Assembly: GCF_013408305.1 (NCBI RefSeq)
Contig: NZ_JACBZS010000001.1
Span: forward strand, 2,108,001-2,172,000
Reading direction: 5' to 3'
DNA: 64,000 bases
DNA from: Naumannella cuiyingiana
GTDB taxonomy: Bacteria; Actinomycetota; Actinomycetes; Propionibacteriales; Propionibacteriaceae
The position numbers and the translations under genes were made by a program. A model generated the notes under the pieces. That model was not told the DNA's origin and made no database searches. It worked only from the letters and a program-made list of their open reading frames with translations. Below, piece after piece: positions 17,988 to 40,188 of the stretch; position 1 is the stretch's first letter, and every line of letters begins with the position of its first letter.

Positions 17988-19865
17988 ATGGGCTATCGCG
18001 AGGAGTTCGACCAGAGCCTGGCCGATCCCCGGGGCTACTGGGGCGAGCAGGCCCGAGCGATCGACTGGTTCCGGCCGCCCGAGCAGGTGCTGACCGACGA
18101 GGAGCCGGTGCCGCGCTGGTTCGCCGACGGGATCCTGAACACCTGCTACAACGCCCTCGACCGCCACGTGATCAACGGCGGCGCCGATGCGCCGGCGCTG
18201 ATCCAGCATTCGGCGATGACCGGTGCCCGGCGTACCTATACCTACGCCGAACTGCTCGAGCACACCGCCAAGCTCGCCGGGGTGCTGCGCGCGCTCGGCG
18301 TGGAGCGGGACGACCGGGTGATCATCTACCAGCCGATGATCCCCGAGGCCGTGATGTCGATGCTCGCCTGCGCACGGATCGGGGCGATCCACTCGGTGGT
18401 CTTCGGCGGGTTCGCGCCGAGCGAGCTGGCCGCCCGGATCGACGGCGCCGAGCCGAAGGTGATCATCTCCGCCTCCTGCGGGTTGGAGCCCGGCCGCGTC
18501 GTCGAGTACCACCCCATTCTGGAGAAGGCGCTCGAACGGGCCGACCATGCGCCCGAGCACTGCATCGTGGTGCAGCGCGAACAGGCGCCCGCCGAGCTCA
18601 AGGAGGGTCGCGATCTCGACTTCGCCCAGTTGATGCGCTCCACCGCGATCAAGCCCGCTCCGGCGGCCGACGTCGCCGCGACCGATCCGCTCTACATCCT
18701 CTACACCTCCGGCACCACCGGGAAGCCGAAGGGGATCGTCCGCGACAACGGCGGACACGCGGTCGCCCTGGCCTACGCGATGCGCACCATCTACGACATC
18801 GGGCCGGGCGAGGTGATGTTCACCGCCAGCGACGTCGGCTGGGTCGTCGGGCATTCGTTCATCGTCTACGGCCCGCTGATCGCCGGTGCGACGACCGTGC
18901 TGTACGAGGGCAAGCCGGTCGGTACGCCCGACGCGGGCGCCTTCTGGAAGGTGGTCGCCGAGCACGGCGTCAAGGCGCTGTTCACCGCACCCACGGCGAT
19001 CCGGGCGATCCGCAAGGTCGATCCCGACGCCGAGCTGGTGGCCGCGCACGACACGTCCAGCCTGCAGACGCTGTTCCTGGCGGGTGAGCGGACGGATCCC
19101 GACACGCTGACCTGGGCGGGGGAGAAGCTCGGCGTACCCGTGGTGGACAACTGGTGGCAGACCGAGACCGGATGGCCGATCGCGGCGAACCTGCGCGGGC
19201 TGGAGCCGATGCCGATCAAGCCGGGCTCGCCGTCGGTCCCGGTGCCGGGCTACGACGTCGCGGTCCTCGGCCCCGATGGCGAGCGGGTGGGCCCGGACAC
19301 CGAGGGCGCGATCGCGATCAGGCTCCCGCTGCCACCGGGCACGCTGGCGGGGGTGTGGCGCGACCCGCAACGCATGATCGATTCCTACCTGAAGGCCTAT
19401 CCCGGCTACTACTCCACCGGCGACGGCGGCGTGATCGACGCGGACGGCTACCTGACCATCCTCGGCCGCACCGATGACGTGATCAATGTTGCCGGGCACC
19501 GCCTGTCCACGGGGGCGATGGAGGCGGTGCTCGCCACCCATCCCGCGGTGGCCGAGTGTGCGGTGATCGGTGTCGCCGACGAGCTGAAGGGCCAGGTGCC
19601 CCGCGGGTTCGTGGTGTTGAAGGAGGGGCAGTCGGTCGAGCCTGATCAACTCGCCGCCGAACTGGTCCAGCTCGTCCGGGACGAGATCGGCGCCGTGGCC
19701 GCGCTGCGCCGGGTCGATGTGGTCGCGGCCCTGCCGAAGACCCGCTCGGGCAAGATCCTGCGCAAGACGATGCGGGAGATCGCCGACGGCAAGGACGCCG
19801 TCGTACCCTCCACCATCGAGGATCCCGCCGTCGTCGACGACCTGCGCGACGTACTCACCTCCTGA
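17988..19865 (+). CDS. prpE: Propionyl-CoA synthetase-type acyl-CoA ligase
   Basis: 625 residues; ATG 17988 with gagaggag 8 bases upstream. ANL-superfamily motifs: YTSGTTGKPKGIVRDNGG (ATP P-loop), WWQTETGWPI (core 5), YYSTGDGG, GRTDDVINVAGHRLST and the C-terminal catalytic Lys in PKTRSGKILRK. WWQTETGW and the SCGLEPGRVVEY segment are characteristic of PrpE rather than acetyl-CoA synthetase (YWQTETGG). It activates propionate or acetate to the acyl-CoA, releasing AMP and PPi. The PPi could be used by the adjacent membrane pyrophosphatase. No regulator is visible nearby. Confidence 0.85.
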   Translation: MGYREEFDQSLADPRGYWGEQARAIDWFRPPEQVLTDEEPVPRWFADGILNTCYNALDRHVINGGADAPALIQHSAMTGARRTYTYAELLEHTAKLAGVLRALGVERDDRVIIYQPMIPEAVMSMLACARIGAIHSVVFGGFAPSELAARIDGAEPKVIISASCGLEPGRVVEYHPILEKALERADHAPEHCIVVQREQAPAELKEGRDLDFAQLMRSTAIKPAPAADVAATDPLYILYTSGTTGKPKGIVRDNGGHAVALAYAMRTIYDIGPGEVMFTASDVGWVVGHSFIVYGPLIAGATTVLYEGKPVGTPDAGAFWKVVAEHGVKALFTAPTAIRAIRKVDPDAELVAAHDTSSLQTLFLAGERTDPDTLTWAGEKLGVPVVDNWWQTETGWPIAANLRGLEPMPIKPGSPSVPVPGYDVAVLGPDGERVGPDTEGAIAIRLPLPPGTLAGVWRDPQRMIDSYLKAYPGYYSTGDGGVIDADGYLTILGRTDDVINVAGHRLSTGAMEAVLATHPAVAECAVIGVADELKGQVPRGFVVLKEGQSVEPDQLAAELVQLVRDEIGAVAALRRVDVVAALPKTRSGKILRKTMREIADGKDAVVPSTIEDPAVVDDLRDVLTS

Positions 19866-19873
19866 TCGCACCC

Positions 19874-20467
19874 GACCACCCGCCCGGGGTTGTGGCGGGC
19901 CGGGCTCGGCTTGTCCGCGCCGAAAGCGACCACTCGCCCCGGTTGTGGCGGCCGGGCTGGGTGTATCCGCGCCGAAAGCGACCACTCGCCCCGGTTGTGG
20001 CGGGCGGGTTGGGCGTATTCGCGCCGGAAGTGACCGCCCGCCCGGGTTGTGGCGACTGGGCTGTGGCCGGCGGCCGGACTCGGCCTACTGCGCCGGAAGC
20101 GACCGCTCGCCGGGGTTGTGGCGGGCGGGTTGGGCGTATTCGCGCCGAAAGCGACCACTCGCCCCGGTTGTGGGGACGGGCTGGGACTGGCGGGCGCGCT
20201 CGGCATATCCCCGCCGGAACCGACCACTCGCCCCGGTTGTGGCGGGCGGGTTGGGCGTATTCGCGCCGAAAGTGACCACTCGCCCGGGTTGTGGCGGCGG
20301 GCCTGGGACTGGCGGGCGCGCTCGGCACCCCGCCGGAAGCGACCACTCGCCGGGGTTGTGGCGGGCGGGTTGGGCGTATTCGCGCCGAAAGCGACCACTC
20401 GCCCGGGTTTGTGCTGTCGCTCTGGCCCGATCTTCGCCATTACCCGTGCGAGTGGTCGGTTTCGGCG
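19874..20467. repeat. Mosaic direct-repeat array with terminal inverted copy
   Basis: Ten degenerate copies of a roughly 25-bp core (GACCACTCGCC followed by GGTTGTGGCGGG) begin at 19874, 19928, 19980, 20032, 20101, 20153, 20222, 20274, 20341 and 20393. Spacings are 54, 52, 52, 69, 52, 69 (20153 to 20222), 52, 67 and 52 bp. The short spacer is itself repeated (TTGGGCGTATTCGCGCCG plus AAAGC), and the long spacers resemble one another, giving a higher-order unit of about 120 bp. The last copy (20383-20402) has a 20-bp inverted partner with one mismatch at 20448-20467. It is not a CRISPR because the spacers are not unique. Function unknown. Confidence 0.85.
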
Positions 20468-20501
20468 AGGTTGCCGTCCGCTCGGCCGATGACACATCCC
20501 G

Positions 20502-20614
20502 GGCGCGAGCCGACCCGGCAGGCGCGAGTCCACCCGGCAGGCGCGAGTCCACCCGGCAGGCGCGAGCCGACCCGGCACCCGCGAGTCCACCCGGGAGGCG
20601 CGAGCCGACCCGCC
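20502..20614 (+). repeat. Six tandem copies of a 19-bp unit
   Basis: Units begin at 20502, 20521, 20540, 20559, 20578 and 20597 and follow GGCGCGAGYCSACCCGGCA, alternating mainly between GAGCCGACC and GAGTCCACC; the last is truncated by one base. The 19-bp period is not a multiple of three, so this is not coding. It directly precedes the methyltransferase start at 20668. Confidence 0.85.
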
Positions 20615-20667
20615 ACCTCCACCGCCGCCCGCTTGCCCGACCGGCGCGCATCCGCTTCGGTTGGCGC

Positions 20668-22146
20668 ATGGACTTTCCCGTGAAGCGGCTCCGGGAGGCC
20701 TTCGAGGCCGCCGGCTACACCGTCGACGGCGTGCTGCGGCGGATCGGCGAGGCCGGGCAGGCCGGCCTCGGGCGCAACCAGACGATGCCCGCCCGGCGCG
20801 CGCTCGGCGAGGCCGGCGACCCGCTCGCCACGCTGATCCGGCTGTTCCTGCTGCAGCAGCCGGCACCGGCCGAGCACGTCGACCGGGCGCTGCCCGGTCT
20901 GACGGAGACCCTGCTCGCTCTCGACATCGTCCGCCGCGCCCCCGACGGCCTCCGCGCCGCGATCGACCTGCGGCCATATGCCACCGACGACGAGCAGCCG
21001 CGCTGGATCGTCTCCGATCTCACCCCGGGTCTCGACGGACCGGCCGGCCCGATGCGTCCGGACTACGTGCTCGGCGTCTCCTCGGCCTCCACCACGCTGG
21101 CACAGCTCACCATCCGGCGCCCGATCGGCCGGGCGCTCGATCTGGGCACCGGCTGCGGCGTGCAGTCGCTGCACCTCGCCGCGCACGCCGACGAGATCGT
21201 CGCCACCGATCTCAATCCGCGCGCGATCCGGCTGGCCGCCTGGACCGCCGCGCTCAACCAGGTGGCGGTGGATCTGCGCGAGGGCGATCTGTACGAACCG
21301 GTCGCCGGCGAGACCTTCGACCTGATCATCACCAACCCGCCCTATGTGATCGCCCCGCCGGCCGACGACGACCGCCGCCTCACCTACCGCGAGGCCACCC
21401 GCACCGGGGACGAGCTGGTCCGCGAGGTGATCGCCGCCGGGCTGGAGCACCTGGCCCCGGGCGGCACCCTGCAGATCCTCGGCAACTGGGCGCACCAGCG
21501 TGACGGCGACTGGGCCGGCCGGCTCCGCGACTGGCTGCCCGCCACCGGCGTCCGGGCGCTGATCATCGAGCGGGAGCTGCTGGACCCCTATGAGTATGTC
21601 GAGCTCTGGCTCACCGATGCCGGCCTGTTCGGTACGCCGGGCTATGCCGATGCCTATGCCCGCTGGCTCGACTACTTCGCCGAGCTCGGCATCACCGCCG
21701 TCGGGATGGGCTGGATCACGATCCGCCGGATCGACGACGCCACGCCCTCCGACATCGCGATCGAATCCTGGCCGCACGCGGTCCAGCAGCCCGTCGGCGG
21801 TGCGTTGGCCGAATGGCTCGACGCGGCGCCGGTGGCCCAGCTCGGCGAGGCCGAGCTGTTCGGGCGTACCTTCACCATCGCACCCGATGTCGATGCCGAG
21901 ACCATCGGCCGGCCCGGGGCCGCCGATCCCGAGCATCTGCTGCTGCGCCGCAGGGCCGGGCTGCGCCGCGCGGTGCGGACCGACACGGCGCTCGCCGCGG
22001 TCGCGGGTGCCTGCGACGGCGACCTGCCGCTCGGGGTGATCGTCGATGCCGTCGCCCGGCTGCTCGACGCCGACGCGGGCGCCCTGCGTACCGACCTCAC
22101 CCCGCGGCTGCGCGGCCTGATCGTCGACGGCTTCCTGCGCGGCTGA
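20668..22146 (+). CDS. NPPY-type SAM-dependent methyltransferase with N- and C-terminal extensions
   Basis: 492 residues from ATG 20668; the frame is open far upstream through the repeat array, but this is the first start after it and begins the recognisable protein (MDFPVKRLREAFEAAGY). The core has motif I LDLGTGCGVQSL (about residues 155-166), ATDLNPRAIRLA and the catalytic IITNPPYVI (about 222-230), as in N6-adenine or glutamine N5 methyltransferases (HemK/RlmG-like). About 150 residues precede and 250 follow this core. Actinobacterial homologues with these extensions lie near topA; the substrate is unknown. No ribosome site is clear. Confidence 0.72.
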   Translation: MDFPVKRLREAFEAAGYTVDGVLRRIGEAGQAGLGRNQTMPARRALGEAGDPLATLIRLFLLQQPAPAEHVDRALPGLTETLLALDIVRRAPDGLRAAIDLRPYATDDEQPRWIVSDLTPGLDGPAGPMRPDYVLGVSSASTTLAQLTIRRPIGRALDLGTGCGVQSLHLAAHADEIVATDLNPRAIRLAAWTAALNQVAVDLREGDLYEPVAGETFDLIITNPPYVIAPPADDDRRLTYREATRTGDELVREVIAAGLEHLAPGGTLQILGNWAHQRDGDWAGRLRDWLPATGVRALIIERELLDPYEYVELWLTDAGLFGTPGYADAYARWLDYFAELGITAVGMGWITIRRIDDATPSDIAIESWPHAVQQPVGGALAEWLDAAPVAQLGEAELFGRTFTIAPDVDAETIGRPGAADPEHLLLRRRAGLRRAVRTDTALAAVAGACDGDLPLGVIVDAVARLLDADAGALRTDLTPRLRGLIVDGFLRG

Positions 22147-40119: not shown

Positions 40120-40188
40120 CGCGATTGTTTCCGCAGTTATGCCCGCTCTGACACGTCCAGAGCGGGCATAACTACGGAAACAATCGCG
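40120..40188. terminator. 31-bp near-perfect palindrome between two minus-strand genes
   Basis: Arms 40120-40150 and 40158-40188 pair over 31 bp with one mismatch (C40133 against A40175) and a 7-nt loop. It starts 3 bases beyond the stop of the YqeY gene and ends 4 bp upstream of the LLM -10 box. It can terminate yqeY transcription, but it is much longer than a normal terminator and its content (TTGTTTCCG, TTATGCCCGC) is AT-richer than the surroundings, so it may be a small mobile palindromic element. Confidence 0.75.

Follow-up and report, generated by a model that had tools for sequence, protein, structure and literature searches.

In the window, by which we mean the whole 64,000-nucleotide stretch of DNA that was analysed, prpE and a DUF7059/methyltransferase gene are separated by an 802-bp gene-free gap (19866-20667), as had been noted in a preliminary description of this DNA. 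Repeat searches and a profile scan of the window identified at this location an array (19864-20467) in which a 33-bp unit with the consensus CGCCGAAACCGACCACTCGCCCGGGTTNTGGCG occurs ten times in direct and once in inverted orientation. The features of the locus are as follows:

17988..19865, + strand: PrpE/acyl-CoA synthetase gene, the left flank (open reading frame; start MGYREEFDQ picked by eye)
19864..19897, + strand: direct unit 1, a degenerate copy with an additional G (CGACCACCCGC core); it overlaps the stop codon of prpE
19918..19950, + strand: direct unit 2 (profile scan)
19970..20002, + strand: direct unit 3 (profile scan)
20022..20054, + strand: direct unit 4 (profile scan)
20091..20123, + strand: direct unit 5, start of the 52/69-bp alternation (profile scan)
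20143..20175, + strand: direct unit 6 (profile scan)
20212..20244, + strand: direct unit 7 (profile scan)
20264..20296, + strand: direct unit 8 (profile scan)
20331..20363, + strand: direct unit 9 (profile scan)
20383..20415, + strand: direct unit 10, left arm of an 85-bp convergent pair (profile scan)
20435..20467, - strand: inverted unit 11, capping the array as right arm of the same convergent pair (repeat search and profile scan)
20668..22146, + strand: right flanking gene, DUF7059 plus methyltransferase small domain

The spacings between these units are, in order, approximately 53, 52, 52, 69, 52, 69, 52, 67, 52 and 52 bp, the last being the distance to the inverted unit. The ten-copy array with an inverted terminal partner claimed in the preliminary description is borne out by these ten direct units and one inverted unit, and the claimed alternation of 69 and 52 bp after the first four copies holds apart from one interval of 67 bp. 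The recurrence of the reported core of about 25 bp is likewise real, but the unit to which it belongs is longer, at 33 bp. When up to 3 mismatches were allowed, a 20-bp core had 10 matches in the window versus an expected 0.08 +/- 0.31, one of these 10 (16594) being a chance match outside the array. Since the spacers between the direct repeats are not unique and themselves recur within the array, a CRISPR array could be rejected, in agreement with the earlier reading, and a known RNA family was ruled out because no Rfam family matched the array. Directly 3' of the main array, at 20502-20615, lies a second tandem array with about 6 copies of a 19-bp unit, GGCGCGAGTCCACCCGGCA; the remaining matches to this unit in the genome are at control level and the array seems local. 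In a genome of the same genus (G001), prpE and the methyltransferase gene are also adjacent, with a short gap between them, and the array is absent. This gap (L062, upstream of position 1501) has a short tandem repeat of its own, GGTGATTCGGTCCGAATGGTG.

The array in the prpE gap is a local expansion of a dispersed, genome-specific repeat family. Using a profile and a covariance model (92 units by each alone), we identified approximately 94 units in 22 clusters of the 3.5-Mb genome, and all 22 clusters are intergenic. The genes flanking the clusters are co-directional in 14 cases, convergent in 7 and divergent in none (one cluster undetermined), and they are mostly housekeeping genes, e.g. alaS, ahcY, infA, glnA and uvrC. 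The largest cluster (L056, genome 2922160-2923729) has 13 inverted-strand units in a 1,666-bp gap before uvrC. With two mismatches allowed, a pattern of the repeat had 66 matches in its own genome versus 1 for the reversed pattern, and the same pattern had only 0-4 matches in each of the other 197 Propionibacteriaceae genomes, at or below the level of the reversed control. A search for the core in the genome and its relatives thus finds it dispersed in the former and the family missing from the latter: among 198 Propionibacteriaceae genomes, compared at one genome per species, the family is confined to one. The exact pattern had no match in 84,980 species, a set that may omit the window's own genome or near ones, and the repeat was not found in phages, plasmids or viral contigs. 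Most clusters, including that of the window, have no nuclease gene adjacent to them, and neither a target-site duplication nor a clean empty site was seen.

What stays constant from locus to locus is the pairing of units. Intervals of 52-53 bp make up 52 of the 65 distances below 100 bp between neighbouring units (12 between direct units on the + strand, 20 between direct units on the - strand and 20 convergent, with no divergent (-+) pair), and the remaining 13, of 60-91 bp, lie mostly between pairs. Overall, 90 of the 92 units analysed lie 52-53 bp from another unit. The preliminary description had raised the prospect of a core scattered through the genome as ordinary single repeats; the scattering was found, but the copies are paired rather than single. 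The gap between pairs differs by locus, measuring 60, 69 and ~81 bp at three loci, so the unit of about 120 bp made of two halves that had been proposed from the window is merely one local form. Units from different loci are 74% alike, and the spacers of direct pairs are not more alike between loci than shuffled ones (similarity 0.295 versus 0.309). Because drift this far should also have altered the lengths of these unrelated spacers, the spacing of 52 bp, which corresponds to five turns of B-DNA, is probably under selection. The convergent doublets at nine loci have homologous spacers (similarity 0.51 versus 0.372 +/- 0.016 for shuffled sequences, 0/1000), indicating that these doublets were copied as one piece. 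The last two units of the window's array are such a doublet: the inverted partner of the terminal stem-loop suggested earlier is present, but it belongs to an ordinary convergent pair of the family, the pairing of which has no covariation support. No lag-52 signal was detected in 400 kb of the same-genus genome. At five loci (L039, L042, L047, L052 and L053) a different short repeat, like GGTCGAGCCTGTCGAGACC, adjoins many convergent doublets, as if repeat families use the same gaps.

Outside the window, units of this family bracket a gene for a predicted nuclease. This 304-aa gene, P0001 (genome 2733303-2734218), has two direct units upstream (+ strand, 2733122-2733206) and three inverted units downstream (- strand, 2734248-2734385). 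Its neighbours are nadE and glnA, two genes with 123 bp between them in G001. The N-terminal part of its product is AbiEi-like, and its C-terminal part has a match to MTES_1575/DUF559 that is weak when taken alone (E 6.8e-6, below the curated cut-off). In an alignment of 45 homologues, E185, R189 and R248 are invariant and D218 and EYDG are conserved. AbiEi models match 36 of these 45 proteins, Pfam matches to nucleases of the DUF559/MTES_1575 kind were obtained for 17 and 15 of them, and a profile of all 45 matches PDB 3hrl and, weakly (E 0.04), 3r3p, a 'mobile intron protein' that we take to be I-Bth0305I. As judged from these matches, P0001 is a putative fusion of an AbiEi-like winged helix to a Vsr-fold (DUF559/MTES_1575) PD-(D/E)XK nuclease. 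Its relatives were not found in phages or viral contigs.

Bracketing by repeats extends to genes homologous to P0001. There are six further matches to P0001 in its own genome (weakest E 0.002), and at 4 of these 6 loci the gene is preceded by a palindromic repeat of its own, whose arms of ~30 bp are perfect or nearly so, and followed by a copy or half-copy of this repeat. One such palindromic family, which brackets an AbiEi/Vsr-type nuclease gene (L163, genome 2507297), occurs at ~16 places in the genome, including a near-perfect palindrome at 40124-40184 of the window (GCGATTGTTTCCGCAGTTATGCCCGCTC / GAGCGGGCATAACTACGGAAACAATCGC). For a wider sample of 72 usable homologous loci from 57 genomes of the order, we took the best local match between the 600-bp upstream and the 600-bp downstream flank as a flank score, with a cut-off of at least 20; this measure was devised after the pattern had been seen in P0001's own genome, and the loci of other genomes constitute the independent test. 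The cut-off was reached by 46 of the 72 homologous loci versus 0 of 189 random ordinary genes and 0 of 128 isolated genes. The control genes were called with a simple codon score in GC-rich genomes, most of which belong to that order. A single apparent control match (L265) proved to be a nuclease gene of the sample itself (L166). About one third of the homologous loci fall below the cut-off, and P0001 has a score of 19.5, just under 20, its bracketing having been observed directly as units. The downstream repeat starts a median of 11.5 bp after the stop codon (at most 60 bp in 41 of the 46 loci), while the upstream copy ends ~113 bp before the start codon, upstream repeats being located 50-250 bp before it, and at 33 of the 46 loci the palindromic character of the repeats exceeds that of 95% of controls. 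The flank repeat recurred elsewhere in a sample of its own genome for 5 of 8 further loci, and in the other genome for none of the 8.

Similarity of the repeats also follows similarity of the nucleases, with the most-alike nuclease pairs scoring 10.9 versus 7.3 when permuted (0/5000 permutations). The closest homologue of P0001 (L169; 57% identity), which is from another genus, apparently Desertihabitans aurantiacus, has direct units on either side of the gene; their core is CACCGCCCACTCG, as compared with ACCGACCACTCG in P0001's genome, and their spacing 49-51 bp. A 40% homologue (L171) has a different flanking unit, spaced 51, 52 or 102 bp. The other nuclease families do not in general share the fixed 52-bp spacing, and as a rule for all of them it was unsupported on test. 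Beyond the order, a palindrome brackets a homologue in Arthrobacter sp. StoSoilB13 and occurs at 6 and 4 places in the two large replicons of this strain. We found no report of such a repeat-nuclease system in the open-access literature, and the flank repeats of these related actinobacterial nuclease genes suggest an undescribed repeat-plus-nuclease system.

Taken together, we somewhat favour the explanation that the array in the prpE gap arose by local expansion of repeats that serve the P0001 nuclease as targets or ends, in a REPtron-like module with an unrelated enzyme. The earlier suggestions of a non-autonomous element or a protein-binding array agree with this evidence, and nothing specific was found in favour of a recombination hot spot, which had also been proposed. 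From the association of repeats and nuclease genes we infer binding, cutting and mobility as follows. The winged-helix part of P0001 would bind pairs of units, direct or convergent, with their centres five helical turns (52 bp) apart, and such recognition of paired units is plausible since AbiEi, the antitoxin of a type IV toxin-antitoxin system, binds pairs of 23-bp inverted repeats (PMC7319586). The nuclease part would cut at or near the unit pair, and units would be added or spread when the break is repaired from another copy, the outcome being tandem growth inside a locus and copies in gaps at the 3' ends of genes. The eleven units of the prpE array may have accumulated in this way. More broadly, and more tentatively, P0001 and its homologues could belong to a widespread undescribed selfish system of actinobacteria, in which an AbiEi-like wHTH/Vsr-fold nuclease with a DnaA-box promoter recognises its own palindromic or dyad repeats and spreads them intergenically by cut-and-repair, the gene and the specificity of its repeats co-evolving.

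The proposed module shares features with several known systems. Mycobacterial MIRU and similar elements are intergenic tandem arrays in an actinobacterium, as is the array described here; they are set apart from it by description rather than by sequence, in that unit and spacing differ, and we know of no nuclease coupling for MIRU. P0001 resembles the Vsr-fold (EDxHD) homing endonucleases such as I-Bth0305I in its predicted nuclease fold, by a weak profile match (E 0.04), and, under the proposed mechanism, in selfish spread by cut-and-repair; it differs from them in that it is not in an intron or intein, is bracketed by multi-copy repeats and has an AbiEi-like DNA-binding domain. With AbiEi of the AbiE system it has in common an N-terminal winged helix and the domain that follows. 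Unlike in AbiE, however, the C-terminal part of P0001 is a predicted nuclease, repeats are found on either side of the gene as well as at other sites, and there is no AbiEii (DUF1814) toxin gene directly downstream or otherwise beside it, the immediate neighbours being nadE and glnA. In a REPtron, a RAYT/TnpA-REP gene is flanked by its own dispersed intergenic REPs, often as inverted doublets, and several such families may occur per genome (PMC2817692, PMC3116915, PMC6006769). The present case is similar: each repeat family goes with one nuclease gene, which it brackets (the repeats of P0001 lie on both sides of it and elsewhere in the genome), dispersal is intergenic, inverted doublets are frequent, and a genome may have several families. 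The differences lie in the enzyme, which appears to be an AbiEi-like wHTH plus Vsr-fold nuclease rather than a Y1 HUH enzyme, and, for the window's family, in the absence of a GTAG/CGTC tag and of a conserved hairpin, the frequency of direct dimers and the fixed 52-bp spacing.

The main rival explanation is autorepression: the nuclease would be a toxin or defence protein which binds inverted repeats to switch off its own gene, and the dispersed repeats would be by-products or decoys rather than a mobile system. AbiEi does repress itself via paired inverted repeats in its promoter (PMC7319586), most members of the nuclease family match AbiEi models, and the position of the upstream repeats relative to the start codon fits an operator. 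However, the copy right after the stop codon would be superfluous for that role, and repeats are found at many unrelated intergenic sites, mostly 3' of genes; we regard autoregulation as unlikely to be the explanation. A classic REP, BIME or REPIN family, i.e. hairpin repeats moved by a Y1 (HUH) RAYT that has since been lost, would share the intergenic location, the sites at 3' ends, the commonness of doublets (nearly all units in the 22 clusters being paired), the convergent ones among them and dispersal as doublets, and RAYT-less REP families are on record (PMC6006769). This origin is nevertheless improbable. Not one match to the Y1 transposase (PF01797) was present in the genome, while 5 of 14 control genomes were positive, and a GTAG/GTGG or CGTC tag was absent from unit ends in an 80-row unit alignment inspected by eye. 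The 33-mer has no covarying stem, its pairs and covariation being equal to those of shuffles, RNAalifold returned no structure for the units, and the two arms of a convergent doublet fit each other no better than they fit the arms of other doublets. A conserved hairpin, within the 33-mer or between doublet arms, was ruled out by the lack of covariation and of partner-specific pairing, and these results, together with the missing Y1 gene, also ruled out REP/RAYT membership; without a covarying stem or partner-specific arms, the unit looks more like a double-stranded recognition site than a hairpin. In addition, known REP families have few or no head-tail dimers and a variable spacing (PMC3733652), whereas direct dimers are here as common as convergent ones, with one shared spacing, and the units bracket a different nuclease.

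Two further explanations dispense with the nuclease. If the array were a set of sites for a chromosome-organising or nucleoid protein, phasing by five turns would permit side-by-side binding, in keeping with a fixed 52-bp spacing, free spacer sequence and units in both orientations; but a family missing from the genome of the same genus and from 196 other relatives is unlike housekeeping architecture, and the units bracket a nuclease gene whose closest relative, in another genus, has nearly the same core and period, which makes this explanation quite improbable. Functionless growth of tandem repeats by slippage, to which higher-order repeats of 112-133 bp lend some credit by pointing to local duplication, would neither disperse units nor place them around nuclease genes, and the 52-bp spacing recurs at many loci in direct and convergent pairs alike despite unrelated spacers; we consider it very improbable.

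Intergenic repeat families are common in bacteria and, besides REP/RAYT, few of them have a known enzyme. If correct, the nuclease-repeat module that we favour would be a second, independent solution, provided by a non-homologous nuclease that is bracketed, gene by gene, by its own repeats, and many orphan repeat families of GC-rich actinobacteria would gain a concrete candidate enzyme. With pairing fixed at 52 bp, recognition can be tested directly using a single purified protein and short DNA.

The nuclease genes have a further mark in their upstream regions. Of 73 nuclease genes, 33 have the sequence TT[AG]TCCACA, that of the DnaA box, in the 160 bp before them, often near -48; the sequence was found at 0 of 189 controls and in 0 of 73 regions downstream of nuclease genes. 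The DnaA-box-like sequence is not accounted for by the nuclease-repeat model, and nuclease expression is possibly tied to replication. Examples are the copies near 5749 in L055 and at -45 from the start codon in L268.
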